Part shown: positions 1 through 64,000 of the stretch, in pieces
How the letters are laid out: every line of letters starts with the position of its first letter
How positions within the stretch are numbered: position 1 is the stretch's first letter
From: Asterochloris sp. CNOR1
Lineage: Eukaryota > Chlorophyta > Trebouxiophyceae > Trebouxiales > Trebouxiaceae
Direction: 5' to 3'
Assembly (NCBI GenBank): GCA_963969365.1
Contig: OZ017757.1
Location: 496,001-560,000 of the forward strand
DNA length: 64,000 nucleotides
Position numbers and translations under genes: made by a program
Notes under the pieces: generated by a model
What the model saw: the letters and a program-made list of their open reading frames with translations, nothing else
Databases searched by the model: none
Told to the model about the DNA's origin: nothing

Positions 1-3000
1 CTGGTGCCGAACAACCCGCCTGTCGAGCTGGCCCCAAAGTTGAAACTGGGCACGCCGGATGTGGGTGCCGGGCTGGCAGCAGCTGAGCTCGCGCCAAACA
101 TCGTGCCCTGGCTGCTGCCACCGTCAAAGGGAGGTGCCTGGCTGACGGCAGGCCTGCTGGCCTGTGCTGCGCTGCTGCCAAAGGCAAACGGTGGCAGGCC
201 AAAGGACGGCGCCGCACTGCCCCCCAAGGTCTGGCTGGCAGCGCCCGAGCTGACTCCAAACACTGGGGGCCCCTGGCTGCGGCTGCCCACTGGAGGGGTC
301 TGCGAGACCTCCTCTGCAATGGGCGGCAGGCTGGGCCCAGCAGGGGCGCCGCCGAACCCTCTGTCAAACCCTCCATAGGCTGCTGAGCCTCCAGGGGTTG
401 CTGCAGAGCCAGGTGCGGCTGCCGCAACGCTGCTGGCTGCAGGCGGTCCTGTGCTGGGGCTCCCAAACCCAAAGGTGTTGTTTGACCCGTCGCCAGCATG
501 GCCAAAGCTCCCTGCTGCCTTGCTCAGGGGATCGCTGCCTGTCATTGCAGCGCCTGCACCAGCACAGCCAGGGCAATTGACAACGCAACCATTTCCAAAG
601 GTGAAGAGGACATAGGGCTGAGCTGAGAGACAGCAGAGTGACAGTCAGATGCAGCAGGGCCTGCATTGCATTGCCGAGCTGAACGCACATGGGAGAGGGA
701 CAACATCAAGCTGGCGCTGGTGGGGCACAAGCGGCACCAGCATGTTCTCAAAGTGTAACCAGAGCCCCTGCCAGACAAGGCCTACACCACCCAGGTGCCA
801 GCAGTACCTCACAACCTGCTTGCTGTACAACAGACCCTGCATCCTCACTGTCACTGCTTGCCTGCAATGCCATCTGCGGCTCCCATGGCAGGCTGCCAGC
901 TCACTCCAGAGGCAACCCCGCCCTTGCTGCTGGCAGGCGAACCAAAGAGGCCGACTGTGCTGCTCTTGCCTGCCGCTGCTGCAGCTTCCGAGCTGCCACC
1001 CGCCCCAAACTTGGTGCTGGTGTCCGCCCCAAACAGTGGCTGCGCTGGCCTGCCTGCTTCAGACCCAGCGTGGCCTGCAGGGTTTGAGACAACATCAGCG
1101 CTGATGCTGCAGCGGCGAGGCAGTCACTCAATGATTCAGCGCAGCCTGGAGAGTGCTGGGTGTTGCCCAGTGCCGTCTGAATGATTTGGACTGTATGCCT
1201 AAGCTGAGGGAATGGACAACAGAACAGCTGTGTGTGTTCTGCGTTTGCTTGTTAGCCTGCAGGGTGCAGCGCCCCATTTGCACTGGTGATGCTGTCACAG
1301 CTTAGCTTGTTGATGGTTGCATGTTTGTGCCTCAGCCACAGTCTGGGCAGGTCTGCCCGATGTTGATTGAGGCCTTATCTGCATGTCCTGTGAGGTGGGA
1401 TGCAGCGCAGGGCTGCTGCTGCTGCAGGAGGTTGTTATACAAAGAGGGCAGTGTGACTCACCTCCAGTGAGCTGCACAATGAGCTGCACGTGGTTTGCCT
1501 CTTTCCTCATGAGGGCTTTGCATGATAACATCAGATATGATGGCTGTGCAACATGCTTGTCCATCGATAAGTCAGTCCAAAAGGTGAGTATCTTGAAGCT
1601 GCGAGGACTGAGGACGCTTGGCTGTGCTGGGCACCGTGAACAGGGGCTCACCATGCTGCTTGCCTGTTGTCAGGCCAGCAGCTCGGCAGGCATACAACTG
1701 GCAATGCAACAACACCCACCCGGGGCAATGCGTCCACCTTTGGAAGTAGGGGCATGCTGCCGGCTGGTGTCCTGCTTGATGGGGCGGCCAAGCAAGCCTC
1801 GACCTGAGTCATTCCCCTTGGACCACCTGTCTGACAGGCTGGCTTCGAGCCCCACGTTGCTCCCTTGTGCAGACTCTTTGACACCACAGAGCCTGCCAAG
1901 CACTCGTCCGACTCAGGCAAAACTCAGGAGGCGCACCGAAGCTGAATCTGGACTGGAGCTCACCATGCAGAGCAAAGCGACTCCGCTGCCTCCCGCCTCC
2001 ACAGTGGTCGTTGAAGCTGGACAAGCTGGCAACACGCAGCTGCATGCCTTTGCCTCTCATGCAGGCCCCGTGAACTCACTCTGTTGCCTACAGATACGAA
2101 AGTTGGTCATCCACTGTTCCCAGATACCGCAGCTCCTGCGTACGGGCCTCTCGTGACATGCAGCTTCACAGGCATTGCAGGCGCAGCAAGACTACCCCTA
2201 AGGTCATCTCACAGTTCAGGGATGGGCTCTTCCCCTGCCTCCAGAGTGGTGATTGATGCTGGACAAGCAGCAAGAAGCAGCTGCATAACATGCAGTAATC
2301 AAAGCTTACCATTTGACAGTGCATGCGCTGGCAGATCGTCCCCTGCCCCCAGCTCTCGCAGCTCCTGAGAAAAGTCCTTCCTGATGCCATCTGCAAAGTC
2401 CAGGTAGTCCTGCAGGCCTGGGCTCCAGAAACCCTCAGGGTGCTCCCTGAACTGGTCCTCTACCCATCTGCAGGGCAGCCGTCATGAACAAGGCTTTGGC
2501 TTGACTCTCCTGCAGTGTGCTCCCTCAAGGGAAGGCACCCTCTGATGAGGCCCAGGCGATGTTGTGGTGTTTTCTGTTTGACGCTGCGAGCCTAAACATG
2601 ATGCTGAAGCACCCAGCATCTTGTCAGCCTGCCACCACAGAATTTTTTGTTGGTGCAGGGGCCAGGCACAAACCTGGCAGACAGCAGTGACAGGAGCCCC
2701 AGAAGAGGTGCAGCATCACTGTGCAACCTGACATTGCAGCCATGCCAGTAGGCAGCGCCATCACTTGCCTGGCAAACTGCTTGTTCAGAGCTCTGAGGTG
2801 CCTGTACAGCTCCAGTGTGCGTCGCTGCTTGGCCTGCACCATCCGGGGACTTTAGCAATACTGGGCGATGCATCATGGGCCTGACGATGCTGAGGGCTGC
2901 CTAGCAAGATCGCCTGGAGCCATATCAGGCAATCTGCATCCCATGCAAATGCAAAACATGATTGCATGGATCGCGCTACCTGTGGAGCATCGGTGTCTGC

Positions 3001-3036
3001 CCCAGTGCCATCTGCCTTGCGCTTCCCCTTCTTCAT
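1..3036 (-). CDS. Nup50-type FG nucleoporin, 3' end off the window
   Basis: Seen: exon 1 (3036-2980) begins MKKGKRKADG. Exon 2 (2833-2769) gives LYRHLRALNKQFAR and exon 3 (2467-2310) gives WVEDQFREHPEGFWSPGLQD followed by DYLDFADGIRKDF; phases join exactly. Further left come FG-rich exons (about 1090-900 and 560-1) with PLFGADTS, KFGAGG, GLFGSPA, NTFGFGSP, FGLPPFAFG and FNFGASSTGGLFG. Known: Nup50/Nup2 proteins have a basic N-terminus, a short helical segment of the ALN...W type, FG repeats and a C-terminal Ran-binding domain, and work at the nuclear basket in importin recycling. Inference: the Ran-binding domain would lie left of position 1. The exon 2 donor is GC (CCAG|GCAAGTG). The start is the first ATG; the open frame also runs up to a GTG at 3048. 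Exons between 2310 and 1100 are uncertain. It could be another FG nucleoporin. Confidence 0.68.
1963..2258 (-). repeat. Duplicated exon cassette in the nucleoporin gene
   Basis: Two similar acceptor-exon-donor blocks sit about 242 bases apart on the minus strand: 2258-2213 and 2016-1963. Both follow a TTGTCCAG acceptor and read as a small residue followed by S(I/T)TT(L/V)EAG, and both end at a GTGAG donor. Each accepts the phase left by the exon ending at 2310, but they leave in different phases, so they could be alternative exons or one could be dead. Confidence 0.5.
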
Positions 3037-3106
3037 GCTGATGTTCACAACCTTGCCAAACAGATTTTGTTTGACCTAAATTAAGCTATAGCTCAGAACA
3101 GGACTT

Positions 3107-3148
3107 AGATCAATTGTGCTAAATCAATTGTGCTAGATCAATTGTGCT
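3107..3148. repeat. 14-base unit in three tandem copies
   Basis: AGATCAATTGTGCT, AAATCAATTGTGCT and AGATCAATTGTGCT lie end to end. The CAATTG core is palindromic, so the array offers three evenly spaced sites for a dimeric DNA-binding protein. It lies about 70 bases upstream of the nucleoporin start codon. Confidence 0.8.
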
Positions 3149-3206
3149 CATGCTCATCGATTTTAGAAACGACTGATCTCACAGCCCTGGAAAGCAGGTC
3201 TTGTAA

Positions 3207-3320
3207 GCACAGCAAGTATGCTGCCTCCCAACAGGAGCTGAAAAGGCTAGTTACCACCTGAGTCTCCCGATAAGTAGTGCCATGCAGCTCCTGTTGGGGA
3301 GGCAGCAAACTTGCTATGCT
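3207..3320. other. Foldback with arms of about 35 bases
   Basis: The left arm (about 3207-3240) and right arm (about 3285-3320) are reverse complements except for one extra G and two mismatches. A loop of about 44 bases separates them. A transcript would fold into a near-perfect hairpin of the size of a small-RNA precursor. It could equally be a small foldback or MITE-like element. No terminal duplication was recognised. Confidence 0.6.
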
Positions 3321-3587
3321 CACATCAGAATGTTGGACAGCCTGCAGCATCCTAGGCCAGGTCCACCCTTGTGTGCCTCGCGCAGCCTTGTTCGTGGCTG
3401 TGGCGTGTACAAGCCAAGGTGTGACATCCCATGTGATGCACTTTGGCAAAACGGGCACCTGTGAGCAGCACCTCATCCCTGCAGGCCTACCCATGCCCTC
3501 AGAAAGCGCCTCGCCACCACAGCGCAGACTCAGGATCCAAAGGGGATTGCTGCGCACCAGGCGTGTTGTGGGTCCATCACTGAAACA

Positions 3588-5813
3588 ATGTCATGCGGCA
3601 CAGTCGTCATTGGCAGGCCGTTCTTTGACAGGGAGATGGAGCAGGCCAACTTGCTTGACCGGCTTGGAAAGGCCCCAAGCAACATGCTGCTTGTCCTGGG
3701 CCCTCTCAGCAGTGGGAACCCGCCTGCTTCGAGAGGTCCTGCTGAGCGGCAAGCTCGACACCCCGGTGTCATGGTTCAGCCGCCGTTATCAGAAGCTGTC
3801 AGATGCCAGTGTGATGGCTGAGGCCTTGACCCGCAAGCTTGCTGCCCAGCTCAATGCTCTGGAAAAGCTTAGGCAGGGGGGGATGGTCGGAGCTAAGCAG
3901 TTGGTGCAGATTAAGTTTAGCATCGACATCAAGTTGCTTGATGGCAATGAGACCATTAAGCTGTTGCCTGCAGCACTGGCAGCATCAGCAACACCCACTT
4001 CAGCTGCCATAAACATGCTGATTGGTGCATTTGATGATTTGCTGACTAAAAGGAAGGAAGCCTCTGGGTCGCCGCCGGTCATCTGCATTGATGAGTTCAA
4101 TGTGCTGATGGACTGGTTTGAAGGTGACAGAGCGTTGCAGACTGATCTCGATGCTCTGCTGAGGTTCTTTGTCCAGGTGGGAAGATCTGCTTGTTGCTGC
4201 ATGTCATTGCCTATGATGTGCACATGACTTAGGACACCTTTGCTGCATGCAGATCATCAAAGAAAGCTCACGGGCTCATGTCATACTTGCGACCTCTGAC
4301 TACAGCTTTCTGACCTGGCTGAAAAGGAGTGAGCCTTCGAAATTTGTCATCAGCAGCCATGTTCATGCCGCAGCTCACCCTCTTGTCTCATGCAGAGGTG
4401 AAGGTTGGCTTCTTCATCACAGAGGTCATTGGGGACTTCCCTGAACCAGAGGCACGCAAGTTTTTCCAGGAGCTCATGAGCAACAACAGAGAGGTCACTG
4501 ACAAAAAATGGGCTACCATCTTTGAGGTGCATCGTAAGCAAATCTCTTACCTGTCATTTGATCTGGTGCAGCTTCTGCTGGAGCTGGTGCCTTCTGCTGC
4601 ATTGCAGGTTTGTCTTACCTGTCATTTGATCTGGTGCAGCTTCTGCTGGAGCTGGTGCCTTCTGCTGCATTGCAGGTTTATCTTACCTGTCATTTGATCT
4701 GGTGCAGCTTCTGCTGGAGCAATTGCTTCTGCTGCATTGCAGGTGTGTGGGGGCAATGCTGGCTGCCTGGTCACCTCTTCACAGTTGGTGGAATCCTCAG
4801 ACAATGTCCAAGCAGGTTAGTCACTTGTGCTGGCTGTGCATCATGTCCAGCCTACGCTAGATACACTGACAGGATCACCCATCTGTGTCACAGCTCTGGA
4901 GCTGATCTGGCGCGAACCCTTTGATGCGGCAGAGTCTGGCCTCACGGGAGATCTTCCGTGGACAACAGAGCAGTATCGCACAATGCTGCAGCTCATCTGT
5001 GAGTCTGACCATGCAGCAGTCATTGCTACAGATGCATACCAGGAGCTGAACCCAGGCGGCAAGCAGGCTGTGCAGGCCATGGTGAAGGCTGACATGTTGG
5101 CCTATAGGCTGGCATCAGGTAAGCATGTTGCCACTTGATGCTGTTGCCTGCCCTGCTCCAGCGCAGACAACGGAGCCCTCCATCAAACTTGAGCCTCCCT
5201 TGCGCTGTAGCATGGGCACAAGACATCCCGGCGGAGGCAGTTGGCCCATGCCAGAAGGCCATGCTTACTGCACCCTCAGCCACACACCTCTACTGTATGC
5301 GCCTCCTGCAGAGTGACGCTGCCTTGAAAGTAAGCGAGTGATTATGGTTGTGTGAGAGGCAGGTGCACATGGTGGCACACAGTGCCAGATGCCATTGACT
5401 GAGTCATGCATGGTTGTGAGAGGCCCTCAGCCTGAGGCCACAGTATGTTGTGACTGCACCCTGGGCCATAAACCTGTCCAGCATGTTTTGCGCACAAGGA
5501 TGGCTCCCTTCAGGCAGGAACTGAGGTAAATGCTTGCAATGGTAGAGTGCTAAGGCTGCTGACTATTCTGAGGCTCCTCAGTTAGTTGCAGGTGCTGCTG
5601 ATGCTGTCTGTTGATGTTTGCAGGCTGCACCCAGCAAGTCTTGAAGCAGCACATCCAGGATGTGGGTGGCAAGATGACCAGAGGAAAAGCAAGAATGAAG
5701 GTGCTGCGCAACACCAAGCCAGAGGGCTGGGAGGATGGGCTTCGTACTTGCGTAAACAGGACGAGCAGCTCCATAAGAAGGAGCTCCTGCTCCTGCGCAA
5801 GTTAGACACTTGA
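3588..5813 (+). pseudogene. P-loop ATPase (archaeal-ATPase type), frameshifted in Walker A
   Basis: Seen: exon 1 starts MSCGTVVIGRPFFDREMEQA and runs to VLGPLSSG, where the frame breaks. The next frame resumes at TRLLREVLLSGKLDTP. Later it has a Walker B-like PPVICIDEFNVLMDWF, then exons 4253-4328 (HVILATSDYSFL), 4396-4526 (KVGFFITEVIGDFPEPEA), 4743-4815 (VCGGNAGCLV), 4894-5118 and 5223-5329. A terminal exon from about 5635 reads QVLKQHIQDVGGKMTRGKAR and needs another one-base shift near 5737 to reach a basic C-terminus ending at 5813. Known: the order GRxxE, Walker A, Walker B, then GGNxG matches the archaeal-type/STAND ATPase families. Inference: a two-base loss fell on the invariant Lys-Thr of Walker A, so ATP binding should be lost unless this is a sequencing error. 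The last exon could instead stop early at 5644. Confidence 0.6.
4545..4742 (+). repeat. 68-bp tandem repeat, three copies, inside an ATPase intron
   Basis: Copies start at 4545, 4613 and 4681, an exact 68-base period. Each begins TCTTACCTGTCATTTG and ends GCATTGCAGGT, so each carries a usable splice acceptor. The third copy has an internal change and precedes the exon that gives VCGGNAG. Confidence 0.9.
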
Positions 5814-5959
5814 GTGCAGTCAGTGTACTGGTCCAACAATGAGTGTGTGATGCTGTCTATCTAAGTCGTGTAGCCTCACAAACAGTATATGGCTAAGGTT
5901 GTGAGTGCCTGTCAATCTATTGCTTGTTGATTGCTGTGCATGGAGATTGCAATGTGCAG

Positions 5960-7740: not shown

Positions 7741-7744
7741 AACG

Positions 7745-20950: not shown

Positions 20951-20954
20951 GGGA

Positions 20955-21010: not shown

Positions 21011-21036
21011 GCTGCTGCTGCTGCTAATGAGCCAGC

Positions 21037-44400: not shown

Positions 44401-47338
44401 GACACACACTCACCGCAACACAATGGGTGGCACAGACAGCCCAGAACATTAGCGTGGTGATGCTCCAAGTCTGATCACTGCCAGCAGAAGGGACACATAT
44501 GGTAACCACATCAACAGCAGAGGGACTGGTGGCCTCTCACACAGAGCCAGCTGTGTCACGATATCAGGCAATGCCTTCTCGTGCTGCGCAGGGCAGCTTA
44601 GGCGGGGTTCACTGGGGCAGAAGGCGCATCACAAGGTCCAGGGGCAAAGCCATCGCTCAGCTTTGCGGTGCTCCCGGGCGGTTGAGAAATTGGCCAGGCT
44701 GTCAAAGCAGCCCATGCAACTTCAAGGCATACTCACAGGACAGCAAAGCAGGTTGGAGCGTGCCCATAGAGATGCAGTCTCTGCCTAACTGCAGCCACTT
44801 AGCGTCGAAACATCCCCCTAGCAGGGGTAACCCAGTCTCCATATGACGCAGAAACAATGCCTGCAGGGACCCTGTTACGAGACACAGCATTGAGGCACAC
44901 AGCATCATAGAGGCCAGACAGCGAGGGGACCAACAGCAATGAAGCTGATGACTGCTGCATGAGGCTACAGTTGACCCCAGCGAGCATGTAGACTGCATGG
45001 CGGTCATTCTTGCTGCCTGCTTCCACGTGACCGGCATGGCTGCCGCAGCCAGCCTTCTAGACTTGCAGCGGCGGCTCCACCTCTGCATGTCGTCGCCTTG
45101 TGCCTGGCGCTCTGTCAGGGAGCGCCTGAGATCAGCATTCTCAGCTGCCAGAGCTTGCGCCTGGGTGAACGAGTCCTCAAGGTTCCTGGAGGCCCTGAAC
45201 TTGCGCGCGGTGTGTTTCCCACAGTGCACCCAGGTCTCTGTGATCTTCTGAACCCAGAGCTGCAATATGGGCAGCAAGGCAATTTCAGTGGACAACCAAA
45301 AGTTTGCCCTTTCACCATTTGCAGTGCACCCTTCTCTTTGTGAAAATCTGGACTCAAAGGTGGCAGTGGGGGCAGCAGAGCAGCATTAATTTGTGGAACT
45401 TGTGCACGGTGTGCTTGCTGTAGCGCAGCCCAGGTTGCACATTGAGAGTCAGGAAGGGCTGCCTGCCAGCATGTAAATAGCCAGAGTGCCACAGCAGGCT
45501 GGAGGCCCATCCCGTCCTGGTATGGCTCAAGCAGGAGGTGAGATGCCATGCATAGGGGGCTGCGCAATGCACATCAGGTTGCATCTTGGCGTCAGCGAGG
45601 CATGCAGCTACTATGAGATGAGTGTGGCTGACACACTGCCTCCCAGAGCATACTGGCTGCCCAGACACCAAGTAGGCTTTCTGTGCGATGCAGAACTGGC
45701 TGCACCTCGCCTCAGCAGGGCTTTCTGCCACAGAATCAAAGTAAGTGCCAGCTTCGAACGCCAGAGGCGCATTCCCCTCAAACAGCCCCTCGAACAGGAG
45801 GTGGCTGCCGTGCAATGCGCTCCTGGCCGCAGCAGGCCCTGTGGCCGGCAGAAAGGCCACACTAAGCTGAAGACGCACCAGCTGCGCCTGCCAGGAGGGG
45901 CTGTGCACTTCAGGTCAGGCCACACCTTAGCCTCAGCAGGACTTGCGGCCGCCATGAGATGGGTGTGACTGCCGCACTGTACGCTGAAGACACAGCCTTT
46001 CCTGCTGCGCCTCTCGAAAGTCTCATCCGTTTTGTCCACCTGTCTGCAGAGCAGCAGATGGCTAAGATGTGAGGCGTCAGACAACAGAGGCTGCACATCA
46101 ATTGTCATAGGCTTCAAGGTTATTCAGGATCGGGCTGCAAAAGCCCAGCAGACGATTTGCTTGCTGGGCTAGTATTGACTCAGGCCAAGGATCTGCAGGC
46201 TCTGCCCGTGACTCCCTTCCAGCAGGGCTGCTGGCTTGAATGCAGTCCGCCTGCCAATTGTCAACAGAGGCGCTCAAGCAGCCAAGTGTGCTGCTTCAGG
46301 ATCTGCAAGTCAAAATCACTTACACACACTCAAAGTGTACATCAGAGTTGTGGCTTGCTCACCGATCCTCAATGACAGTGACGCCAATCTGAGGCCCATA
46401 CCCCCGTGGCAAGGCCCTGACAGGGATCCTGTCCAGTGGGACGTACCGCACGTCGTGGCAGTCATCCTGCTCAGCTGAATAGCACAGCCTGTCGTCCAGC
46501 AGAAAGAACTGCACGGCAGAATTCAGCAGCCACTGAACACACAGCTCCTCTGCTGACTTGTTTGCTGGGCTCAAGGACATGGCCAACTGCCCAGGAGACA
46601 AGAACTTGCAAGGCAGAGAACAGAACACATCATCTCCTGTCAACAGTTCTGCTGGGCTGTGTGTTGCGGCTGGTTGCTGAGCAGAAAGGACTGCAGGACC
46701 TCAAACCCTGGGCATTCTAGCAACATATGCTGCCAGAGCTTCATGCAGCTGGGCAAAATGTTGCATCATCTCACTGCACTGGGTAGTCATAACTTGTCGC
46801 TGCACAGCACAGGTTCAATGTGGCAATACCCGACAACTTGCTGCAATTTTAGTGAGCTCCATGGTGATCCAAAGGCACCACTGCCTGGCACGAGTATGCG
46901 CCCCCTGCCATATCTGCAGCTGTGACAGCCATAAGCTGAAACAACCGCAGGGCATACTACAAGGCATACACCAGGTTGGGGCCAGTGCTTGCTGGCCTGA
47001 CCTTACTGCCATGCGCAAAACAGCAGCAGACCATATGACAGGCTGTCACGCAGCTGCCACCTGTCATTTGTTGAGATCAATTGAGAGGCTCTCATAGGGC
47101 TTCAGCTGATGGCTTGAAATGGGAGACATCAACTACGTTTTGCAGTTGAATGCAACTCTATGCTCAAGGCACGGCCAGCTGGCCAGAGATGACCTTGCCT
47201 CACCCATCGGCGGCGCCACTGGGTGTTGGGGCCGGTGCCATGGGGCCCGGTGCCATGCGCCTTCAGCAGCCAGCCTGAGAAACGCACATCCTCCAGAAAC
47301 TCAGCAGTTCCTACAGTCTGGAGGTCTTCTGTTGCCAT
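23537..47338 (-). CDS. Giant PH and multi-PLAT (lipoxygenase-homology) protein gene
   Basis: ATG at 47338 opens MATEDLQTVGTAEFLEDVRF and a PH domain. The minus strand then carries a coiled-coil middle and about 14 successive PLAT domains, each ending where the next begins, with no start or stop context between them. The last frame stops at 23537 (FSPKIKASR). Known: proteins made almost wholly of PLAT repeats, such as animal LOXHD1 with 15, link membranes to proteins; single PLAT domains occur in lipoxygenases and polycystins. Inference: one transcription unit of about 24 kb with dozens of short exons, giving a protein of roughly two thousand residues or more at the cell cortex, with PH and PLAT both favouring membrane contact. 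Splice joins were checked only at a few domains. The tail left of 26500 and the segment 44300-46100 could belong to separate genes. Confidence 0.6.
26510..44230 (-). other. Array of about 14 PLAT/LH2 domains
   Basis: From N- to C-terminus, approximate positions: 44220-42460, 41990-41395, 40825-40270, 40240-39290, 39095-38630, 38350-37290, 37090-36065, 35450-34510, 34215-33430, 32910-31980, 31860-31020, 30240-29690, 29300-27960, 27700-26510. The shared pattern is Y.V.V.TSD..GAGTDA.V.L.L.G, then F.RG..D.F......LG.L..I.IGHD, then WHL..V.V......W.FPC..WL. Clear examples are YHVTVHTSDLAGAGTT and MERIRIGHDDRGEG; YLVVVLTSDLPGAGSDASVQ and LTHIVIGHDGHGSSPAWHLD; CRRWLCKTEDDGAISRDL. The TSD..GAG loop, which binds calcium in some PLAT domains, is well kept in about half. 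Domains near 35 and 32.8 kb are the most diverged. Confidence 0.9.
44250..46340 (-). other. Middle region of the PLAT gene, coiled coil plus unclassified exons
   Basis: Exons at about 46070-45905 (DKTDETFERRSRKGCVFSVQ, CGSHTHLMAAASPAEAKVWP), about 45860-45670 (LLFEGLFEGNAPLAFEAGTY) and about 45250-45060 (LEDSFTQAQALAAENADLRR, SLTERQAQGDDMQRWSRR) look coding. The last is a heptad-like coiled coil, and CRRWLDSQRRLAELEAQSVA near 44390-44340 may continue it. The alternating short hydrophobic strands before it could be beta-trefoil-like, but this is speculative. A degraded copy of the first exon lies near 45640-45545. Confidence 0.4.
46364..47338 (-). other. PH-domain exons at the N-terminus of the PLAT gene
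   Basis: Exon 1 gives FLEDVRFSGWLLKAHGTGP and ends QWRRRW at a GTGAGG donor. A second exon (about 46640-46370) gives QFFLLDDRLCYSAEQDDCHD, VRYVPLDRIPVRALPRGYG and IGVTVIEDR. Known: PH domains open with a GWL.K strand, then (K/R)RRW..., a FFLLxxxxLCY strand and a ..IPL strand, and bind phosphoinositides or proteins. The exact exon join is not settled, since several acceptors are possible. The C-terminal helix may be the CIQASSPAGRESRAEPADPW exon near 46240. Confidence 0.65.
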
Positions 47339-47606: not shown

Positions 47607-50600
47607 ATGGATTTCTGGTCAAACGTGACCGACATGCTGTCTTGCGAGTTCGTGTGCGCAGTTATGGAGTTTGATCTTGCTGAAGTCCATGCTACCGAGC
47701 AGGAGAACCCTGTGGACCAGCAAGACACCGATGAGGAGCCAGACTTCATCGAGCTGGACATGGGAGCAGGGAGGAGCCAGGTGCTGAATCTCATTGAGCA
47801 GCAGGTGGTGGAGCTGCTGGAGGGGCTGGCCAACAATAGGGTGCCAGCTCTCCAAATCGTGAGTCACCAGGGAACATGGGAGGGAAGCGCAGCTGCAGGC
47901 CTATGAGGCGCTTCCACTGGCACTGTGGCTGCAGAACATCTCCAGGGGCATCAACACAGCTGACGGCGTCACTAAAGTGCCAGAGAACACCAAGTTCAGC
48001 CTGTCCCTGCATGTCCGTCAATAGTGCTGACTACAGCTGCATCCTCGGCAGCCCTGCGCAGCAGATGTCGGCTTGGTCAAGAGGTCAGAACGGCTGCCAG
48101 GCATGCCCTGTGCCTGCTACAGCTCAGGAGGGACACCAGCAACGCTCAGTACATCCAGCGACCAGGCGGCACTGTGCAGCTGAGGGTGCAGGATGGCATG
48201 CGACGGATCTCAATGACTGACAGACAGGCTGAAAAGGCGTTCCTCTACGTCAGAATCTTCAAGGTACATTCAACACGAAGCGTGCGTGAACGGCGGGGCC
48301 TGATCAGCATGAGCAACGACTCTGCATGCAGCACAGCTCTGAGCATCACCCTGGAAGACCTGTTGCTCTCAATGGGCAGTCCTGCCGGCTTTGTCTGTGA
48401 TTGCATCACAGAGGGCTGTGTACGACGGAGCAGCCAGCAGCTGCCAGCAGGTTCCAGACACTGCACAGGAACTTTTCAGAATCAGCAGACACTAGTCAGC
48501 ATCACTCAAATCTGTGCACTTTGCTGACCACAGGCTCACCTGCATATCTTGGAGGTTGAAGCAATGCCCGTCATACTGCTCAGCACAGGGCAAGTGTTCA
48601 GCGCTATCATCCTGCACTGCTGGCAGGTTCTCAACAGGCTTGCAGAAGCTGCTCAGCACAGGCTGGCAGGCCAAGCAGCGCGATGTGTACACCCCATTCA
48701 AGGCTGAAACAACTTTCCTGTGTCCCTTCTGCGCTCCCTGGAGGTGCCTACAGGTCACACAGGAGCTGTGCCAGCAGCGCACAGACTGCTTTCTGAGATC
48801 CCCTTATGGCTCCTCTGGCTTGCCCGCAGGGCCTCAAGGCGTACTGAAGCTGCTTGGCACAGGCTGCACTCCAGCATCAACTAGAAGTGCCTGCAGGTGC
48901 TTGAGGTTGTGCAGGAGCTGCTCAGCACAGGCAGACAGGCGACGCAGCGTGACCTATACTACCGCCTGCTGTGCCCACCCATCTTCAACAGCCCAGCTGA
49001 TGTGCATGGTGCCATCCAGGTCAGCGACAGTAACCAACAGCCGCAGACTGCAGGTCTGTCTGACAGTGGCGGGGGCTTTGCTTCGTTTGTGCCCTGCTGT
49101 GTCCACACTATGACAGACCCGCGCCCTAGAGCTGTTTATTGTCCGCGGGCTGGGGCGCCGAGCAGCTGAGCAAGTAGTAAGGCCTACACGGCTGTGAACT
49201 CCTGCCTCACCTAGCCCTCACTGCTGCATCATGTAGCCCTGAAGGCGCCAGTCATAATGCCATGCGTCTCAGGCCGAGCAAGTCTCCGCAGATGCTGCAG
49301 CCCTTGGCAAGTGACGAGACAGGCAGGCTGACGGACAAGACTGCCCAAGCCTGGCAGCTGACGGCTGCAGTCCCCTGGTGCGACAAGCTCCCCTCGTCCC
49401 TGTCCCTGCCCAATGGTATGCCCTACAGGATGTGGTGTGCCTTCTGCGAGTGCCACGTTCAGCACTGGGCATCATCTGCAGCAGCCGCGGCCTTGTAGGT
49501 GGGCGCCTGGAGGTGCAGGAGGCTCCCGGGGGACCTTGGCTGAGCTGCAACTGTCCTGGAGGCAGGTGGGTTTCCAGTGCTTTCTACTCCAGTGGCAACG
49601 AGCTGCACGAGCTGCTGCTGCTTTGGCGGCACGTGGAGTTACCATTGCTTTGTGTACTGGTGGCCCTCTCTGCTCTACTAGCAACGAGATGCATGAGCTG
49701 CTGCTGCATTGGCGGCAGGTGGGGTCACCAGTGCTCTATGCACATATGGCAGGGGCTGCCCTGCCCCTCTTGCCTGAAGCAGATGTAGTGCTTTAGCCAG
49801 GCTGCTTCCTCTGCAGGAGCATCACTGGCAATGTTAATGCCATCCTCAACTACAACTTCAGGACAGATGCTAGGTGGAGAGCTTGATCTGGCTGCCAGTG
49901 GTGTTCAGCCTCTCGCTTGCCTTCCAGCAATGCTTGCTCAGGGTGACTGCTAAGGAGGGCGGCTTAGTGTGGCCTGTCATACAATTTGCTCAGCTTGCCT
50001 GGCACGCAGTTCATCCTCAGGCAACCTGCATCTTCAAGTGCAGGGGCTTGCACCAACATGTTGAGCATGCCATGCAGTGTGATCCTTGTGATTGAGAAGG
50101 ATGCTGTGTTCCAGAGGCTCATGGAAGATAGCTTTCCCTCGCTGGTGCCATCAGTCATGGTGACAGGCAGGGGCATGCCCGACATGGCCACGCGTGAGTA
50201 ATCCAGTGCCTGCCACCCATCTGGTCTGTCTGCGCCTTGCTGAGGAGGCCCAGGCCGACCTGCATCGCACGGTGGACCAAGACTGGAATGAGCTCACGAC
50301 AGCATGGCCGGCCGCATCATTTTGCATGCAGCCCAGCACCTGGCGGTCTCTCTGCAAGCCTGTGCCCTTCCAAAGATGCACAGATGCTCTGATGCAGCCT
50401 CAGCACTGAGTTCAGCAATCTGCAGACGATCTGGACATCACCAAGCAAAGTCCACCACACCTTACCCTCCCTCCCTCTGTGTTTTGCCCTGCAACCTGAG
50501 ATTGCAAATTTGCTGTGCACTTGGCTCTACAGGTGTGCTGCTTACCTGCCTGCACAATGCCTTCCCTGTCCTGCCTGTGGTGGGCCTGGTGGACTGGAAT

Positions 50601-52505: not shown

Positions 52506-54540
52506 ATGAAGCAGGGGCTTCCAGTGAGGCTGCCCCTGCTGCTGCTGCTCACACTTCTGGCAGGCCAGGGGACAGCACAGATCTCGGGTGCGTGCCAGTC
52601 CCCACGTGCCTTGCTTCACTTGCAGACACCTTCTGGCTGCAGCACTCAGGCCAGACAGTAATGTCTGGGCCCCGGTGCAGCTCTGAAAGCAGAGGCACTG
52701 CCAGAAGGAGACTTCAGCAGTGCCTGCTAAGTGCTATGCCTGCAATGTTGTTGCCTGCAAAGATGTTGGATGTGCTTTCCAGCTCCCAAAAGAGTCAGCT
52801 GCAGTATGGGACACAGAGTCTGTGGGCTGCTGCTGTCTTTGTGCAGCCTGGTGCTAGCCCTCAGGCACTGACTTGCTGCTGGACACAGTCACTGCCTGGC
52901 ACCTGCATCAAAAGCATCCAAAACCGTGCAGTGAGAGTCCTCCCACTCTCTCACTGATCTGGAACCCTGTGTTCCTGCAGGCTGGGCGCCTCAGCGGCGC
53001 CTGCAGCAGGCGTCTGATTATGCAGTCACGGCCACCCTGTCGCTGAGGGGGGCACCAGCCCTCTCAACCCCCTCTCTGGCGGCTGCGGTCATGACTCAGC
53101 TGCCGGAGGCCACCTCCATACAGGTTCCCTCTGTGGAGACCCGCAGCGACAACAATGGGTCAGTGTCACTGGCCTTAGTCCAGGTGCTGGCCAACTCATC
53201 AGCTGATGCTGACACCGTGGCCAGCAGACTTGGTGGGCTCACCCACAGCACAGCCCTGCTGGACGAGCTCAACGCTGAGGGCGTGACCGCCACAGATGTG
53301 GCAGTTACAGACATCAGCAAGCCGTCTGCGGGGGGGCAGCCCGCGGCCGGGAGCCAGCCTGCAGCCAGGGGCCAACAGGCGGCCCCGAAGCTCACAAGGG
53401 ACCCCAACTCGCTGTCTGGGAGCGCCCTGGCAGGTGCGACACTTGCTGTGGGGTGTGGCGGTAGGCCAGGAGCCAGCTGCTGGAGCAGTGGCAGCGCCTG
53501 ACAGGCTGGCGCCCCTACTCACCTCAGTGCGCTCTGGCAGGTGTTCCTGATGTGCCAAGTTGCAAGGGATTGTGCTGGAGATTCAGGAGGTGCCTTGGTG
53601 CTGGCTTGCCCAAGCCCGTGGCGGGTGGCTGGAGGTTCCACAGCTCACATGAAATCCCACTGGCTGTCTGGTGTCACCTAGGCAGGTGGGGCTTGCCTTC
53701 AACTGGCCTGGTTTCATCTTGCTGGCCTCAGAGGAGGGTCTTGGGGCTGACGTAAGACCTGTCTTAGGCTCCGGAGGTGCCATAGCGGGCATGCCTCTCG
53801 TATCTTCCCACAGCAGCCTTAACAGGGCTGCCATAGCTGGGCATGTGAAGCGCTGTGGTAGGGTGCCTGCTGGCGTGATTTTGCACAAGTGCCGCTTAGG
53901 CCTGCTTTGCAAGAACCTGCCAAACGGTCTCCGCAGGGTGTCTGCCTTTTGATGGTATATTGCAGCAGGCCCTGACTTCAGGCCTATAGAGTTTGCAAGG
54001 CCTCTTGATGCCTGTGGGCGGTGCTGTTTGTAACTTGAATCTGCAGCTTCCCAGAGCGCTGCACGCCATGGCACATTGTCTCAGCAATGTGCATCTCTGG
54101 CACAGGGCCATCGTCCCTGATTTGGCAAGTCACTATGCCTGTTTATTGCAGCTGTGCCGGTGATCATCAAAATTGGCGGCTGCTTGTGGTCACGTCTGTG
54201 CATGCCACCATGCAGCATCTGGCCCTTGTGCCCACTACAGGCTTGCTGGTGGTGTTGGGGAATGGCTACGCATCCCACCAATGCCAGGGCAAGAGTGTAC
54301 TGTGTCCCTTCTGCAGGTGTGCTGGTGGTGATTGGGATTGGGCTGCTTCTGGTGATCACCATGGCAGGCTTCGGCATACGCAGCCTGTTGCAGATTCGTG
54401 ATGAGATGGCAAAGCGGAAGGCAGGCTACAAGGTAGTGGAGCTCAATGGGGACCACCATGGGGATCACCTGTCCTCAGCCGATGCAAAAGACATGGAAAT
54501 TGGACACTATGACAGCAACCCGACAGCCAAGCGGTCCTGA
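52506..54540 (+). CDS. Small type I membrane protein, unknown function (252 aa)
   Basis: Exons 52506-52587, 52981-53433 and 54317-54540 join in phase. The N-terminus MKQGLPVRLPLLLLLTLLAG is a classic signal peptide with likely cleavage after GQGTA. About 150 residues of Ser/Thr/Ala/Gly/Pro-rich extracellular sequence follow, including an Ala-Gly-Gln-Pro repeat stretch (GGQPAAGSQPAARGQQAA). One membrane span, VLVVIGIGLLLVITMAGFGI (about residues 180-199), leads to a charged cytoplasmic tail ending SNPTAKRS. No family is recognised. The layout resembles small cell-wall-associated or stalk membrane proteins. A TGTAA lies at 54686-54690. An alternative transmembrane exon at 54152 is possible. Confidence 0.7.
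54145..54360 (+). repeat. Three look-alike starts of the transmembrane exon
   Basis: The real exon start (CTGCAGGTGTGCTGGTGGTG, 54311) is preceded by TTGCAGCTGTGCCGGTGATC (54146) and CTACAGGCTTGCTGGTGGTG (about 54236). Each has an acceptor followed by a hydrophobic-coding GTG/ATC/ATT run. The first copy also matches the acceptor phase. Confidence 0.75.
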
Positions 54541-56799: not shown

Positions 56800-59700
56800 T
56801 CAGCCCTTGGCACGAGACTTGGCGGCGTTGAACATGAAAGCAGACTCGAACTCCTGCTGATTAAAGCCCTCATGGATGCGCCTGCTGCTGGTCCCACGCT
56901 GCGTAGGCGCCTTCCGTCGCATGTGCTGCCTCTCAGACCTGCCTTGCTGCCCTGCTGAGGAGACCTGTTCTGTACTTTGCTGTTCCCTACCACTAGCTCC
57001 GTTCAACTGGCCCGCATCGTCGCAATGTCCAGCACCGTTGACGTGCCCAGCCCCATTGAGGTGCTGAGCTGCAACGTTCACGGCTTCAGCTGCCTCATCA
57101 GCTGCCGTTTCAGCCAGCCCCTCAGCTGCCAGCTGACTTTCCAGAGCGGGGGCGTCGCCGTCCTGTGCAAATGGCTGGCTGCCAAAGGACTGGGGCTCCA
57201 GGCGCGATGCCCCCCTGGCAGTGGCCAGGGCGGCAATGCGGGTGTGCAGGGTGGACAGGCGGTCATGGCTGCGCATCGCGGCCACAGCTGTGGCCAAGGC
57301 TCCCTGTGTCCCCACCACGACCACCAGCTGCTTGGCGCGGGTCAGGGCTGCAGGCAGAAAAGAACAATTCATTTCCAATACATTGCATGAGCTGTTCTGC
57401 CCATCTCAATTCACACTGCTGTGGCTCCTTTGCTGTGCTGCTAACAGAGACTAGGGGCACAGTGGACCTTGAGCCTCTGGCAAAGCTGTTGCAGCCGTTG
57501 CAGTCAATAACAGATCTGCCCCATGCAGCCTGGCTCAGGCAGCAAGGGCTGACTCACCAGTGTACAGAAGGCGCCGGTTGAGCAGCACTCGATGCTGGGG
57601 AGCCAGCACAAGGACCACGCCCTTGAACTCGGCGCCCTGAGCCTTGTGCACAGTGGTGGCCCAAGCCAGCTGCAGCTCGGCAAGTTCTGTGGCGCCAAAG
57701 TAGGGCACATCAGTCACCTGGCCTGCAGAGGGCAGCAGGAGACGCATGGGCTCAGAATGTAGCGCTGGGCATGGCTGCAATCAATCAGCTGCTTGCTGGC
57801 TTGCAGCTCAGCTGGCCCCTATGGCGCCGCAGACCCCCACAGTGGCAGCGGAAAAGGCATATGTACACCAGGCAGCTCAGCACACTGTGTGGCGCTGAAA
57901 TTAGGCATCTGAGTCACCTTGCCAGCAGAGCAGACGCAGCTCTGGCTGGTGAGGCTGTCATGAAAAGTAATGCTTTCATGAGACTATGACAAAGAGAAAA
58001 GCAGGAGGAGGGGATTGAGGGGGCCCTGTCTCCCCACCCGGGAGTGCTCTGCACACATTCAGGCCATGGTGCACCAGCACGCTTATCACCAGCTGCAGCC
58101 AAGTCGGCGCTCTTTGGCAGTCCTGCACCTACTTTGATCATCAGACGGGTGCCCTCTCCGTGGCACACGCCAAGGGATTGCAAACCCCCAAGCACGTCTC
58201 GACTGCGCTGCATCCAGCATAGCTGCAGCTACTCAACAACCGTGGCTGGGGTGGCGGCGAGCAGGGTCAGCTGATGGAGGCCCTGTGGCACCTCACACGA
58301 ATGCGTCATGTCGTGCATGCAGCTGGGCCTGTACCTACCCTTGTCAAGCTGATTATATGCCTGCATATTTGCAGACCTGAAGCGCCTGTGTAGCCGACTC
58401 AGTGAAAAGGCCCGCCCAGCTCCCAGGCGTGACTTTACACTGGCAGACTGTCACCTCACATGCCAGGCAGTGCCACTGCAGTCATCTCAGAGGGCTGCAG
58501 AGCCCCATCTGGCCTTTTTGCAGGGAAGAACACTGTCAGCCGGCTGTCCTGGAGGTTGACTGCCACCTCAAGCCACTTAGGAGCCCTCCACTTAGAAAGC
58601 TAGCAGTGCTGATTCACAAAGCATACGGACACAGTGGCACAATTGTGCATCAGCAGCCGGCTTTGCCTAGAGCCCACCTGCACATGGGCCCCCGGATAAG
58701 GTTCATCCCTCCAAGTGACCTGTTTGCATACATGCCGGTGCAAGTGCCCCACTGAGTCACCTGGCTCCAGAGCAGGGAATTGCACCGTTAGCCGGCTTTC
58801 CCTGGGGTTGACTGCCACGACAAAGCCCACGTCTCCATTGAAGACCTCCTTGTCGTAGTTGTTGAACGCCTGAATGACTTTGTCGCCGATCATGAAGTCA
58901 GGTGAGGCATCCTCCTGGCTGCTGGCGCCACTGCCTGCAGACACAGGTCAGGGAGCCAGCCTGATTGACAGCACCACCAGCTACTCCAGGGACAGCATCA
59001 TACATGAAGTCAAGTGGGGAGTGCTCATGGCTGCTTTGCCCTGCTGCCTGTAGGGGCCATGATCACACAGGAATGTCAGGCTCAACTGCACTGGATCAGG
59101 TGTCAAACCACAGGTGGCCGACATTCAAGCGTGAGCTAGATTGAGTACAGACTCCTTCTGACATGGCAGCGGGCCCAAGCCAGCAGCACTGCTGGCACTG
59201 CCAAAGGCAGCACCCCACCTGTTTGAGCACTGCTGCCTGAGGTGCACATGCTAGCTTTGCAGACGGTATGCCAGGAACTGCTTTTTGTACACCACTTCTC
59301 ACCTGCTGTAGCGCCACTGGTGCCAGCAACACTGCTGAGGATGGGGAGCGCTGACTTCTGGGATGCGCCAGCCGTCGGTGACAGGCTGTTCAGGCGGCTC
59401 TGCAAGACTGTGTTCAGGTGGTTGGTGCCAGCTGCCACCTTCCGCATGGGAGTGATCACCTGCAGGCACATGGAACCCACATAAGCTTCAGAGGCTGGCT
59501 GTTCAGCAGGCTCAGGTCTCAGCCTGTGAGCTGCCAGGGGGGCAGTGGGGGTCTGCTGTGATGCAGCATCACATGGACAGGCGCCAGGCTTCATGATCCA
59601 TCGCTGGCTAAATTCTACCCTTTGAGCTGCAGCAGCCGCAGCTGCAGGCACGACTGTTCTCTGGTGTCTGCCCTGCGCACTCCTCGGTGCTCAGACGACC

Positions 59701-62700
59701 TATGACTGCTGGCAAGCGACTGGCTTACATAGACATACCCGTTCCTGACTGGCTTGCAGGGTGGCGCTGTTGGCATGGGCCGCTGTGATGAGATGGCAGG
59801 CCTTCATCCCAGCAACACAAAGGCACAGCGCCAGGTACCAGACCGCCTTGCCTGTTCGCAAGCTGCCTCAGCGGGCCATCAGGCAAGGCAGTCACTTTCC
59901 CCCAGGCAGCAGACCGGCTGCAGAGCTGACAGGACACTGCTCACTTCAGATATAAATGGCCCACCTGCACCTCCTTAGCGATGTCAAATCTGCCCAAGGG
60001 GGCAATCAGATTGAACAGAGCATCCTGCACTGCCCCTTCCACGTGGTCCCCATGTGACACCTCCACAAACAGGGCATCACTCTGCACCAGCGCCTGTGCT
60101 GCTTCCGGGGCGAGGTGCTCCTGCAACAGAGAGGAACGGTTCGGCTTTGCATCTTGAGATCACTGTCTGCAACTGTAGCAGTGCAGGCGCTGACTCAGGC
60201 GCCAAGAGACTCTGCGGATGCAGCGCTGTGCCAGCTGACATGCTGCCCAGGAAATCTGCACAGCATGTGCACAACGCAAGCAATATCACACCGCACGGTG
60301 CAGGGGCAATGCTGGTTGTGTTGCTGGGCTCCAGCCACTGCACCAGGCCATGCAGGATGACGCATAGCACAAGACGGCACACCAGTACTGTGTCTGCCTC
60401 TATGCTGCTGGGCTCCCATCTTTCAGAGCAGCAAACTGCTGTAAGCGGACCACCATGACGTGATTGCACTGGGCTTGCCTGAATGCTGTTAGGCTTCACG
60501 TGCTGCAAGCGCTGTAGCAGACTTGGCAGGCTGCCACTGAGAATGGCGTGGGCTGCCCCCACGATGGCGCTCTGCTGCGCCTGCCTGAAGATCTCTCGGA
60601 GGTCGATGACAGGCACGACCCCCGAGCGGATCGCGTCTGCCAGGACGGTGCCAGGGCCCACAGGAGGTAGCTGGTCCACATCACCTGCAGGCAGCATGAA
60701 GCAAACGCTGCTGCAGGGGGACATGCAATGATGTGGCAGCTGAAGACATTGCCTGCAGTCACACACATTGACTGGAAAGCAAATGTTAGTCGCAGAGGGA
60801 ATGGCATGGAGTAGAGCGGGCTGCTGCAGAGCAGGACAGAGGCCCACACCAGCTGGCCCATGAGACGTGCGAAATTGCTCTGCCGGCACCACCGAGAAGC
60901 CTTCTGATGATGGCTTGGCTGGCGGGGACTATGACATGCTGTTTTGCTAGCAGCAGGGCCAGTGCCACAGTCGATCTCTGCTCCTCTCCGTAAGCCCATA
61001 GACCAGCTGGCAGTGTGCTGGCAACACCACCAGCAATGCTACTGCTGGGACATCTCCAAGTGCAGCCTGGGCCCAGACTTCACAACAAGCATGTACCAGT
61101 TGGAATTGACTGGCAACGAGCTGGCAGGACATCCAGCAGAGCTGTCCCCAGGCGGCACCTGTCACTGTTGAGCAACCAAGAAAACTCACATGGGGACTCA
61201 CAAACAAGCATCAGTACGCAGTGGGCTGGCAGTGCATCCAGCAGTGCCACACCCCATCCTGTCAACACTCCACATTTGAGCACGCCAGGGGCTGCAGCAT
61301 ACGCTCCACACACTGACTCACTCACAAGCACCAGCTGGCAGTGCTAGCAGAGCACTCAGAAGTGCTGTGCCCCAGGGGCACCCTGCCACCCTTTCAGCTG
61401 AACCTCACAGTCAAGCCAGGGATGGACTCACCAACAAGCACCAGCTGGCAGTGCGCTGGCAGCGCATCCAGCAGGGCTGACCCCAGGGGCAGGTCCAGCA
61501 TGGAGGCCTCGTCCACCAGCACGGCATCGCATGTCAGGGGGTCATCCTGCAGGCAGCTAGTTCATCAAACCAAAGCGAAGTGCTGCACGCTGGGCCTGGG
61601 GTCTGCACCATGCTGCCATACGCCTGCATGAGCTGAACCCCTGGCACCACTCCTGCATGGTGCAAAGCTGTCATAGCTGCGACGGATATACATGCCGTTG
61701 CCTGTTGCAGGCATGGTACCTCCTCCCACACATGAGACCGGCACAACTGCCCCTGGCAGATAACAGGTCGGCTCACCGCTGTGTGGTTGAAGCGATAACG
61801 GCTGCTGGAGCTGGAGTCATCGTCTTTCTCGTTGTGGGCCCCCTTGGTCTTCCAGCCCAGCATGCGGTGGATTGTCTCAGAGGGATGCTGCGAAGCCTCT
61901 TGCAAGCGTTGGGAGGCGCGGCCTGCAGCAGATTGCAGACGGCAATCAGATATGAGTGGTGGGGTGGGACAGGAGAGTTCTGACTGACTGCAAGTGCAGA
62001 AGGACTGTGATAGACAGGAGTGATGACAGCCAAATGCGCAACCACATGTGATGTTGGTGCTTGTGCAGGGCTTCTGACACGTCAACCATTCGAGCGTCGC
62101 ATCACGATGAGCAACCCCTGTGAGCTTACCCGTGGGAGCACACAAGTTGACTGCCTTCCCCAGCTTGTGCCACATAGAGACGATGTGCTTGGTGGTTGTG
62201 GTTTTGCCGCACCCAGGCCCGCCGGTGAGCACCAGGACTGGCGCTGTCGCAGCCTGCAGAACGGCTGCTCGCTGCCCCTGAGACAGCACTTGCCCATCTG
62301 CACGTCAGGTTCCAGCGCATCAGTACGAGGCCATTGCAGATGAGACCTGTCCGGTGTCTGCTCTTGACGCTTTGCTGCATAGGCCCCCTTGCATGTCAGC
62401 CATCAGGCATGCCACTGAGGCGCGTACAGCATGTTCAGGTTGTAAACCTATAAGATCACCAGAACCCTCCAGGGCAAACAACATGCAGGCTCAGGCGAGC
62501 TGGAATGGAGCTGCTGCTGGTGCCATGCTTTCAGATGCTGTCTGACATGGGCATCAGGACCCCAGGTAATCTATGCTGAAGTAGGGCTCTGTGGTTGACT
62601 AGCTTATATTGTTTTGATGTTGCAGTGTTGCATTGTGGAGGGCAGCATCCTCTGAGCAAGAGATGAGGCACAACATATGGAGATGTGGCCTGCAACAATG

Positions 62701-63977
62701 CTGGTCCACAATGCTGCGGTCACAAGTACCTCATTGAGCAGGCAGCAAGCTCTTTGGAAGCAGAGCTCAGCAGTCAATCCCGCCTAGCATGTTGAGCTGT
62801 CCCCTGTGCATGTGTTGACCAGATCTGGGTCAACAACCTTTATGTGCAGCTCCCCTTCGGGCACGCCAAGCGGCAAGCAGCAGGGTGGCAGATCCCCATC
62901 AACAAGCACCAGAAAGCAAGCAACTTGCAATATCACAATGAGCTGCTGTGTGACCCGGCACTGAGGAACGAGCTGGTGATGACATGAGCAATTCAGCCTC
63001 ACCCGTAGAGCTGAGCTGCTGGATGAGCCCCTGCAGGTGCCTCTCTAGCGCAGGACCCTCGGTGACTTGGGGTCCACTGATCTTCACTGGCACAGGCGGC
63101 CGACGTGCCAGCTCTGCCAACCTCTGGGACACACGCACCTGCAGACAGGGGCCCACACACATTGCTATCTGGTCCGAGACACTTTGTGCGTCATCGTCTC
63201 TATCCCTTGGTAACATCAAGGTAGACATGGTGAGATCCTAGTAGGGCGACAACAAACATGGTGAAACCCTCGTGGGGCAACAACAACAACAGCAACAAAG
63301 AGCGTGGGCTTCAGAGTGGCTTTCTGTGCACAAAGCACAGCAGCTTCCCCCCCAAAACAAGTCAGCAGGGAACTTCAGCATGCAGCTGCAAGCTCATGCT
63401 GTGCCTCAACACATGTCAGCAGGGAATGTCAGCGTGCAGCTGCACATCCGTGTCATGCCTCAACACAAGTCAGCAGGGAACTTCAGCATGCAGTTGCAAT
63501 CCCATGACATGCAGGATCTCACCTGTGACAGCACCAGTACCAAGCAGGCACTCAAAGCGCATTTGCAGGGTGCAACACAGCTGTCCCTCACCCAGAAGGC
63601 ACACTTCAACCTGCGACTGCTACAGGACTGACCTGCACCTGGCAGCAGATCTGCTCTGCATCATGTAAGCTTGGAGAGGTTGCGGCGTACAGCATGTCCC
63701 ACTGCTGCTCAATGGAAAGCTCTTGGTGCAGCTCACTGCTGCATATAGCAGCGCTCAGCTGCTCTGTTGCCTGGGAGTCATTCAGTGCCCAGAACACCTT
63801 GGCTCACCTCAGCATTGTACATGTCTGGCAGGTAGCAGCGTGCAGAGTCATCCCACTGCAGCTGGGCAGGGGCAGCGTCGCGCGGCTCCGCTGTACCTCC
63901 CTCCACCACCAGTAGGCCCTTCAGGAACATGTCTAGGGCCACATCCTCCATGCTCTGCTCACAGGCATAGGGCCGAC
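56800..63977 (-). CDS. RecD-like SF1 DNA helicase, 5' end off the window
   Basis: Eleven exons join in phase: 63977-63808, 63138-63003, 62297-62130, 61922-61777, 61546-61432, 60684-60479, 60120-59965, 59459-59303, 58934-58761, 57722-57558, 57347-56800. Motifs in order: [14 protein letters not shown] (Walker A), [35 protein letters not shown] (Walker B), [82 protein letters not shown] and [13 protein letters not shown]. Known: this set is that of RecD2/TraA-type 5'-3' helicases, with a UvrD-like C-terminal half. The upstream exon YLPDMYNAE fits the RecD2 N-terminal region. The C-terminal 140 residues are low complexity (Ala/Gly/Gln repeats such as [13 protein letters not shown]) and unlike bacterial RecD2. 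One intron has a GC donor (CAG|GCAAGC at 60479). TTACA at 56636-56640 is a likely poly(A) signal. Confidence 0.9.
57885..57930 (-). repeat. Copy of the 5' end of the helicase motif-VI-side exon
   Basis: TAGGCATCTGAGTCACCTTG then CCAGCAGAGCAG parallels TAGGGCACATCAGTCACCTG then GCCTGCAGAGGGCAG at 57700-57735. The copy includes the splice acceptor and lies about 185 bases upstream on the minus strand. Confidence 0.6.
58518..58825 (-). repeat. Repeated exon end downstream of the helicase GDKV exon
   Basis: The coding stretch at about 58786-58820 (TTAGCCGGCTTTCCCTGGGG, then TTGACTGCCAC) has a copy at 58533-58566 (TCAGCCGGCTGTCCTGGAGG, then TTGACTGCCAC) and a weaker one near 58648 (AGCAGCCGGCTTTGCC). 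The copy would read [12 protein letters not shown], against [12 protein letters not shown] in the gene. Confidence 0.8.
61000..61546 (-). repeat. Serial copies of the helicase Walker B exon end
   Basis: The true exon 61546-61432 ends CAGCTGGTGCTTGTTG at a GTGAGTCC donor. Downstream on the minus strand, copies of the same end with a GTGAGT-like donor lie at about 61351-61311, 61251-61191 and 61145-61073, with a fourth trace near 61030-61000. Plus-strand marks are CAACAAGCACCAGCTGGCAG (61432 on), CACAAGCACCAGCTGGCAGT, AAACAAGCATCAGTACGCAG and AACAAGCATGTACCAGTTGG. Decay generally increases away from the gene exon. Confidence 0.85.
63361..63522. repeat. 54-bp tandem repeat, three copies, in a helicase intron
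   Basis: GTCAGCAGGGAA recurs at 63361, 63415 and 63469, an exact 54-base period. Each unit continues with TCAGC(A/G)TGCAG(C/T)TGCA and CCTCAACACA. 54 is a multiple of three, and the plus strand stays open across it as an 18-residue repeat ([10 protein letters not shown]), but the gene here runs on the other strand, so coding is unlikely. Confidence 0.85.
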
Positions 63978-64000
63978 CTGCAGGCGCAGGAGGAGGGGAT

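Follow-up and report, generated by a model that had tools for sequence, protein, structure and literature searches.

The window examined here, a 64-kb stretch of the Asterochloris sp. CNOR1 genome (contig OZ017757.1, here C12:496001-560000; the genome comprises 56.4 Mb in 21 contigs), holds among others an ATPase-like gene, a 24-kb multi-PLAT gene, a Spo11/TOP6A-like gene and a RecD-like helicase gene, and the subject of this report is a peculiarity of their introns, a number of which contain, in direct orientation, imperfect copies of the edge of the neighbouring exon. The pattern is a true one, present both in the window and in the remainder of a 324-kb sample. It probably records decayed short tandem duplications that lengthened existing introns, the centring of the copies on splice junctions arising largely from selection and decay (probability roughly 0.7).

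Gene structures were taken from a hidden Markov model gene finder trained solely on the 324-kb sample (the 64-kb window plus 260 kb elsewhere, in 18 dispersed stretches of 10 kb each and two blocks of 40 kb), and are ab initio predictions without transcript support. The self-trained model converged on 98 gene models with 674 introns (median length 198.5 nucleotides, nt) and on the consensus CAG|GTGAG for donors and CTGCAG|G for acceptors; the acceptor context is very strong across all predicted introns (T 0.90, G 0.91, C 0.97). Sufficient flank was available for 668 of these introns, and the 543 of at least 90 nt form the basis of most tests. When nine proteins or parts of proteins, picked by eye mostly as carriers of junction copies, were submitted to Pfam, eight fell into clear families (PLAT, Spo11/TOP6A, RecD-like helicase, MCM, P450, ribosomal L2, FtsJ/Spb1 and glycosyltransferase 28) and one match lay under the cut-off. 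Copies of exon edges were sought by comparing each donor probe, 30 nt of exon plus 10 nt of intron, with its own intron, ungapped scores of at least 14 being counted as matches; 1629 length-matched introns from other genes served as the between-gene control.

Within the window, 14 of the 93 introns of at least 90 nt hold a junction copy, eight at the donor and eight at the acceptor, with two introns having both. The preliminary description had placed such copies in at least eight unrelated genes, which this test does not bear out: they sit in four gene models, with nine of the 14 introns in a single 24-kb model; a fifth gene, that of the 68-nt array, escaped the test, its array having been split into micro-exons by the gene model. 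The 24-kb model (23537-47514, minus strand) has 49 predicted exons and 2560 amino acids (aa), of which 809 residues were submitted to Pfam and matched PLAT in six stretches (E 5e-96), i.e., a PLAT chain. The individual features are as follows, distances from copy to original being in nt:

4545..4748, plus strand: three copies of a 68-nt unit in an intron of the ATPase-like gene (Tandem Repeats Finder, 68 nt x 3.0, 94% matches).
23948..23988, minus strand: exon-start copy by an acceptor, of 23825-23865 (distance 123, score 17, identity 0.71).
25031..25056, minus strand: donor-junction copy of 25205-25230 in the multi-PLAT gene (distance 174, score 16, identity 0.81).
26139..26189, minus strand: acceptor-junction copy of 26013-26063 (distance 126, score 29, identity 0.78).
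26994..27062, minus strand: donor-region copy of 27084-27152 (distance 90, score 31, identity 0.72); the donor junction beside it is doubtful, a 3-nt exon being predicted at the other end of the intron.
32274..32326, minus strand: acceptor-junction copy of 32136-32188 (distance 138, score 29, identity 0.77).
32556..32584, minus strand: donor-junction copy of 32696-32724 (distance 140, score 19, identity 0.83), the exon end lying in a PLAT region by Pfam.
33882..33905, minus strand: donor-junction copy of 33972-33995 (distance 90, score 14, identity 0.79), the exon end, which codes HIGHDGK, lying in a PLAT region by Pfam.
34365..34418, minus strand: donor-junction copy of 34475-34528 (distance 110, score 20, identity 0.69).
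37546..37597, minus strand: acceptor-junction copy of 37465-37516 (distance 81, score 20, identity 0.69).
46649..46695, minus strand: acceptor-junction copy of 46467-46513 (distance 182, score 15, identity 0.66).
48576..48589, plus strand: exon-start copy of 48649-48662 in the Spo11-like gene (distance 73, score 14, identity 1.00 over 14 nt).
49694..49723, plus strand: donor-junction copy of 49541-49570 in the Spo11/TOP6A-like gene, Pfam TOP6A-Spo11 and TP6A_N (distance 153, score 18, identity 0.80).
53656..53688, plus strand: donor-junction copy of 53404-53436 (distance 252, score 17, identity 0.76).
54227..54265, plus strand: acceptor-junction copy of 54303-54341 (distance 76, score 21, identity 0.77).
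57872..57930, minus strand: acceptor-junction copy of 57672-57730 in the helicase gene (distance 200, score 29, identity 0.75).
61315..61344, minus strand: nearest of four exon-end copies, of 61425-61454 in the RecD-like helicase gene (distance 110, score 26, identity 0.93).

The pattern is plainest in the helicase gene, where the exon that ends at 61432 (minus strand) is followed by four decayed copies spaced about 105-120 nt apart (61315-61370, 61195-61250, 61090-61145 and 60987-61042, with 36, 45, 36 and 36 identical positions of 56), in agreement with the earlier wording of between one and four imperfect copies at spacings of tens to a few hundred bases. The Spo11/TOP6A-like model, for its part, has one stretch in two versions, LLSTGWQAKQRDVY and LLSTGRQATQRDLYY (48641-48690 and 48910-48959, plus strand), perhaps a fossil or an alternative exon.

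The array at 4545-4748 is the one young case. Its 68-nt unit reaches over the acceptor TTGCAG|GT, includes no more than about 5 nt of exon, and is single in both paralogues of the gene (L002 and L003, 83-85% identical to the window gene). The three related ATPase-like genes lie on three contigs, in the window at 3300-5900 (plus strand), on C6 (L002) and on C7 (L003); the Pfam match of the window gene, to ATPase_2, is below the cut-off only. Read most simply from these three sequences, the intron would have pre-existed and gained two units, although unit loss in both paralogues may be the alternative. The array shows, in a single case and at an acceptor, the step that the model set out below assumes.

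Across the whole sample, 41 of 543 donor probes found a match within the intron they belong to, as against 5 of the 1629 introns of other genes (0.31%), and 25 of 543 acceptor probes did so, as against 4 of 1629 (0.25%), both counts being well above the between-gene control. The copies are direct almost without exception, with 41 direct and 1 inverted at donors and 25 and 0 at acceptors. Probes placed 40-80 nt inside the exons gave 19 matches of 543 on the donor side and 9 of 543 on the acceptor side, and an offset scan at equal distance placed the maximum on the junction itself, with 39 donor matches at offset 0 as opposed to 3-21 at sixteen other offsets (-160 to +160) and 23 acceptor matches as opposed to 6-16; with targets on the exon side instead, 9 matches were obtained for each. 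Both the exon-intron similarity and the centring on junctions that the preliminary description had proposed are thus found in the sample. Taken together, a junction copy at the donor or acceptor occurs in 63 of 543 introns (12%), in 32 of the 89 intron-bearing gene models; part of the intron sequence is indeed fossil exon edge, but with only 12% of introns having a recognisable copy, the suggestion that many introns may be built from fossil exon ends is not clearly supported. In a gapped extension test with loose scoring, similarity past the copied stretch exceeds the control on both sides. Reading through the intron is impossible for all 41 donor-match introns, and the same holds for 475 of the 502 remaining ones.

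Direct repeats are also common away from junctions. At the score used, self-comparison with the Basic Local Alignment Search Tool (BLAST) returned nothing under 150 nt distance, and banded gapped alignment took over; it found 276 direct pairs at distances of 15-400 nt as opposed to 4 of equal score at 3000-3385 nt, a distant control that scans about a fifth less sequence. At a score of at least 40, and with each stretch counted separately, 62 pairs fall within the 64-kb window and 214 within the remaining 260 kb, and none was found in 50 kb of E. coli, the sole outside control. Detectable gapped repeats account for 9.6% of exon bases, 10.9% of intron bases and 4.9% of intergenic bases. Their total coverage hardly varies on passing a junction, apart from a small rise at the exon edge; what clearly changes at the junction is the direction of the repeat partner, which near an exon end lies downstream at 8.5-9.2% of sites and upstream at 1.7-2.4%, the picture being mirrored at acceptors. 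Compared with shifted positions, exon-exon pairs are in excess (62 vs 37.5 +- 5.5) and intron-intron pairs are fewer (54 vs 68 +- 7). The median ratio of alignment length to distance is 1.60 at 40-70 nt, 0.99 at 70-100 nt and 0.68 at 100-130 nt. The k-mer and ungapped tests, which use no annotation, prove the local repeats and not their placement in genes.

These observations are best accommodated if short direct tandem duplications, with units mainly of 15-300 nt, arise all along genes. Where a unit spans a donor or an acceptor, the version that survives would be the one in which the reading frame is unaltered, splicing still taking place at the first donor or at the last acceptor; the extra unit would leave with the intron, and the intron would grow by one unit and gain a copy of the exon edge. 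We infer that selection would then hold the exon partner while the intron copy decays, and exon-intron pairs would therefore stay recognisable for longer than intron-intron pairs, with the consequence that the surviving signal would concentrate at exon edges and point into introns. Most of the pairs that can be detected are old, with identities of about 65-85%, as though duplication had once been more active.

The sufficiency of such a process was gauged with a simulation of uniform-rate tandem duplication on the real gene structures, in which exons were kept intact, junction-spanning copies became intronic and no junction mechanism operated. In the old-burst setting, duplication was active over 0.1 substitutions per site, followed by a quiet period of 0.25 (24 runs, with on average 611 simulated introns as against 649 real ones), and counts were compared on a fixed 250-nt target, intron-length-limited targets giving a narrower peak. 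The acceptor peak was reproduced (37 real, 36 +- 6 simulated), as was the rise along the exon side of the donor (9, 15, 19, 22, 27 real; 11, 14, 19, 25, 31 simulated), with simulated counts low on the other side; about 70% of the donor peak is obtained in this way. The median pair identity of 0.71 agrees with three old-burst runs (0.70-0.71), two steady runs having given 0.76 and 0.82. A steady-rate simulation was rejected, in that intron interiors then score about like junctions and young pairs are too many.

Several results weigh against this explanation. The donor junction itself, at 54 real matches, exceeds the simulated 38 +- 6 and even the maximum of 52 in the 24 runs, and counts remain too high at donor +20 and +40 (31 and 21 vs 21 +- 4 and 10 +- 3), at acceptor -40 (17 vs 8 +- 3) and for exon-ward junction targets (15 and 14 vs 6 and 6), and too low at acceptor +40 (14 vs 24 +- 5). 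Shortening the quiet time to 0.20 (16 runs) gives a poorer fit, with 54 vs 42 +- 5 at the donor and 11-14 real matches in the donor intron interior (+60 to +100) vs 19-23 simulated. Pair density is 0.92 per kb as opposed to 0.62-0.70 in three old-burst runs, exon-exon pairs number 63 as opposed to 3-5, and the remainder of the supposed unit scores at least 30 in 18% of 38 real donor matches as opposed to 45-57% of simulated ones (control 0). Ungapped pairs span donors more often than they do shifted positions (75 vs 48 +- 7, n = 378). Mismatches show only a weak excess at third codon positions (0.276 vs 0.235 and 0.223). At 130-400 nt, the median ratio of alignment length to distance falls to 0.26-0.43, which is under half of the supposed unit and makes a tandem origin less certain there; looser BLAST scoring gives 0.99 for 8 pairs at 160-220 nt. 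Finally, the old burst, the exon constraint and the rate used in the simulation were picked after viewing the data, and the fit therefore shows that such a process can suffice and does not identify it as the cause.

The donor surplus invites a bolder version of the same explanation, which is put forward tentatively and must be considered doubtful as a whole: a past wave of short tandem duplication, with fossils still occupying roughly one tenth of the sequence of exons and introns, may have duplicated donors more often than other sites (54 vs 38) and lengthened introns stepwise by captured exon edges, as a ratchet driven by reading-frame selection. The donor bias itself may amount to about 1.4-fold.

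A different account of that surplus, and an unlikely one, is a junction-directed process, i.e., duplication or copying triggered preferentially at junctions, chiefly donors, and placing short copies in introns. The sharp donor peak of the offset scan would suit it, as would the persistence of that peak at a model margin of at least 3 (30 of 397 at offset 0, 2-12 at offsets of at least 20 nt), the donor count in excess of the simulation and the shortness of donor copies, which extend in the median from -25 to +6.5 relative to the junction and whose remaining unit is less similar than in simulated duplicates. Donor matches favour the least coding exon ends, however (19, 10, 7 and 5 per quartile of about 135 each), and in the better-coding half the donor peak is broad (17 of 271 at 0, with 14 at -40, 9 at -20 and 11 at +20); confidence in the donors judged by coding score and judged by forbidding the site gave opposite indications. 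Acceptors, moreover, have no excess over the simulation at the junction. Junction-spanning pairs give different answers depending on how they are counted, the gapped pairs being longer: ungapped pairs span acceptors as well as donors above shifted positions (acceptors 64 vs 49 +- 7), whereas gapped pairs with the junction in one copy do not (donor 60 vs 63 +- 7, acceptor 60 vs 62 +- 6; n = 276), and those with the junction in both copies number 22 vs 12 +- 3 at acceptors and 14 vs 11 +- 3 at donors. Local duplication is common here, as the preliminary description had it, but a process specific to junctions is not clearly supported, given the gapped pairs and the null simulation.

It is less probable still that the pattern is an artefact of gene prediction, with predicted exon ends set on repeats inside true introns and the junction copies being intron minisatellites. 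Some models do behave in this manner: the array at 4545 was split into two 15-nt exons, the protein of a pseudo-exon at 61190-61291 repeats the end of the previous exon, the exon ends of donor matches score low for coding, and the RPL8 acceptor adds five residues to the solved chain. Alignment of five copied donor junctions to solved proteins had a mixed outcome, being clean at MCM5 residue 48 and at mitochondrial RNA polymerase residue 462, falling at two-residue gaps at polymerase residue 545 and P450 residue 186, and very weak at polymerase residue 201. The two clean alignments argue against an artefact, as do the further copied donor junctions in the PLAT region, the ordinary or better coding scores of acceptor matches (1, 6, 10 and 8 per quartile) and model margins that are no lower for matches than for other sites (medians of 5.6 vs 5.0 at donors and 5.4 vs 5.5 at acceptors).

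Least probable is that tandem duplication of AGGT-containing exon sequence created the introns themselves, a proposed route to intron gain that the preliminary description cited: such duplicates could serve both intron ends because the junctions read CAG|GTGAG and CTGCAG|G, but no clear likeness between donor and acceptor contexts was found within the 668 introns relative to the control (34 vs 23 at a score of at least 9 and 4 vs 0 at 12 or more, as against 11 vs 14 at 10 or more and 0 vs 0 at 14 or more), and the paralogues of the young 68-nt case possess the intron too.

Elsewhere in the window, imperfect repeats clustered around ATCACCAAA and CAGGGGAGG occupy 6100-7540, outside the gene models, and an unbroken reading frame of 1135 aa lies at 12386-15793 (minus strand), which by its motifs looks like the reverse transcriptase of a non-LTR (long terminal repeat) retrotransposon. 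Three window stretches, one of them with the array, were also searched against their own genome as candidate introners and matched only themselves or their own array; this search skips very common words and concerns three introns rather than a genome-wide clustering.

If short tandem duplications lengthening existing introns are indeed the source, the repetition of exon edges in neighbouring introns can for the most part be produced with no mechanism acting at the junction, since selection preserves readable exons and the copies are absorbed by introns. The approach offers a measurable route to the share of intron length that stems from exon-edge duplication. It also carries a warning, in that ab initio gene models may convert such fossils into false exons.

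Among known systems, internal gene duplication, which Gao and Lynch reportedly treated in PNAS in 2009, is said to consist of direct intragenic duplications taking in exon, intron and splice sites. Direct duplication inside genes is common to both, but here the copies are mostly old and decayed, and an existing intron is lengthened with none newly made. Introners (PMC9860276) would be recognised by near-identical introns across many unrelated genes; repetitive intron sequence is a feature in common with this genome, whereas the copies reported here match their own locus and not other introns (5/1629 and 4/1629). Tandem genomic duplication is a route of intron gain in which a short duplication with splice motifs has one of its copies spliced out (PMC3443670; Drosophila cases, PMC2891723). 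The present copies are alike in being short duplications with splice motifs, one copy of which is spliced out, and differ from that account in showing no clear donor-acceptor likeness and in the prior existence of the intron in the one case with paralogues. The pattern therefore looks like a clear instance of a process whose kind is already known.

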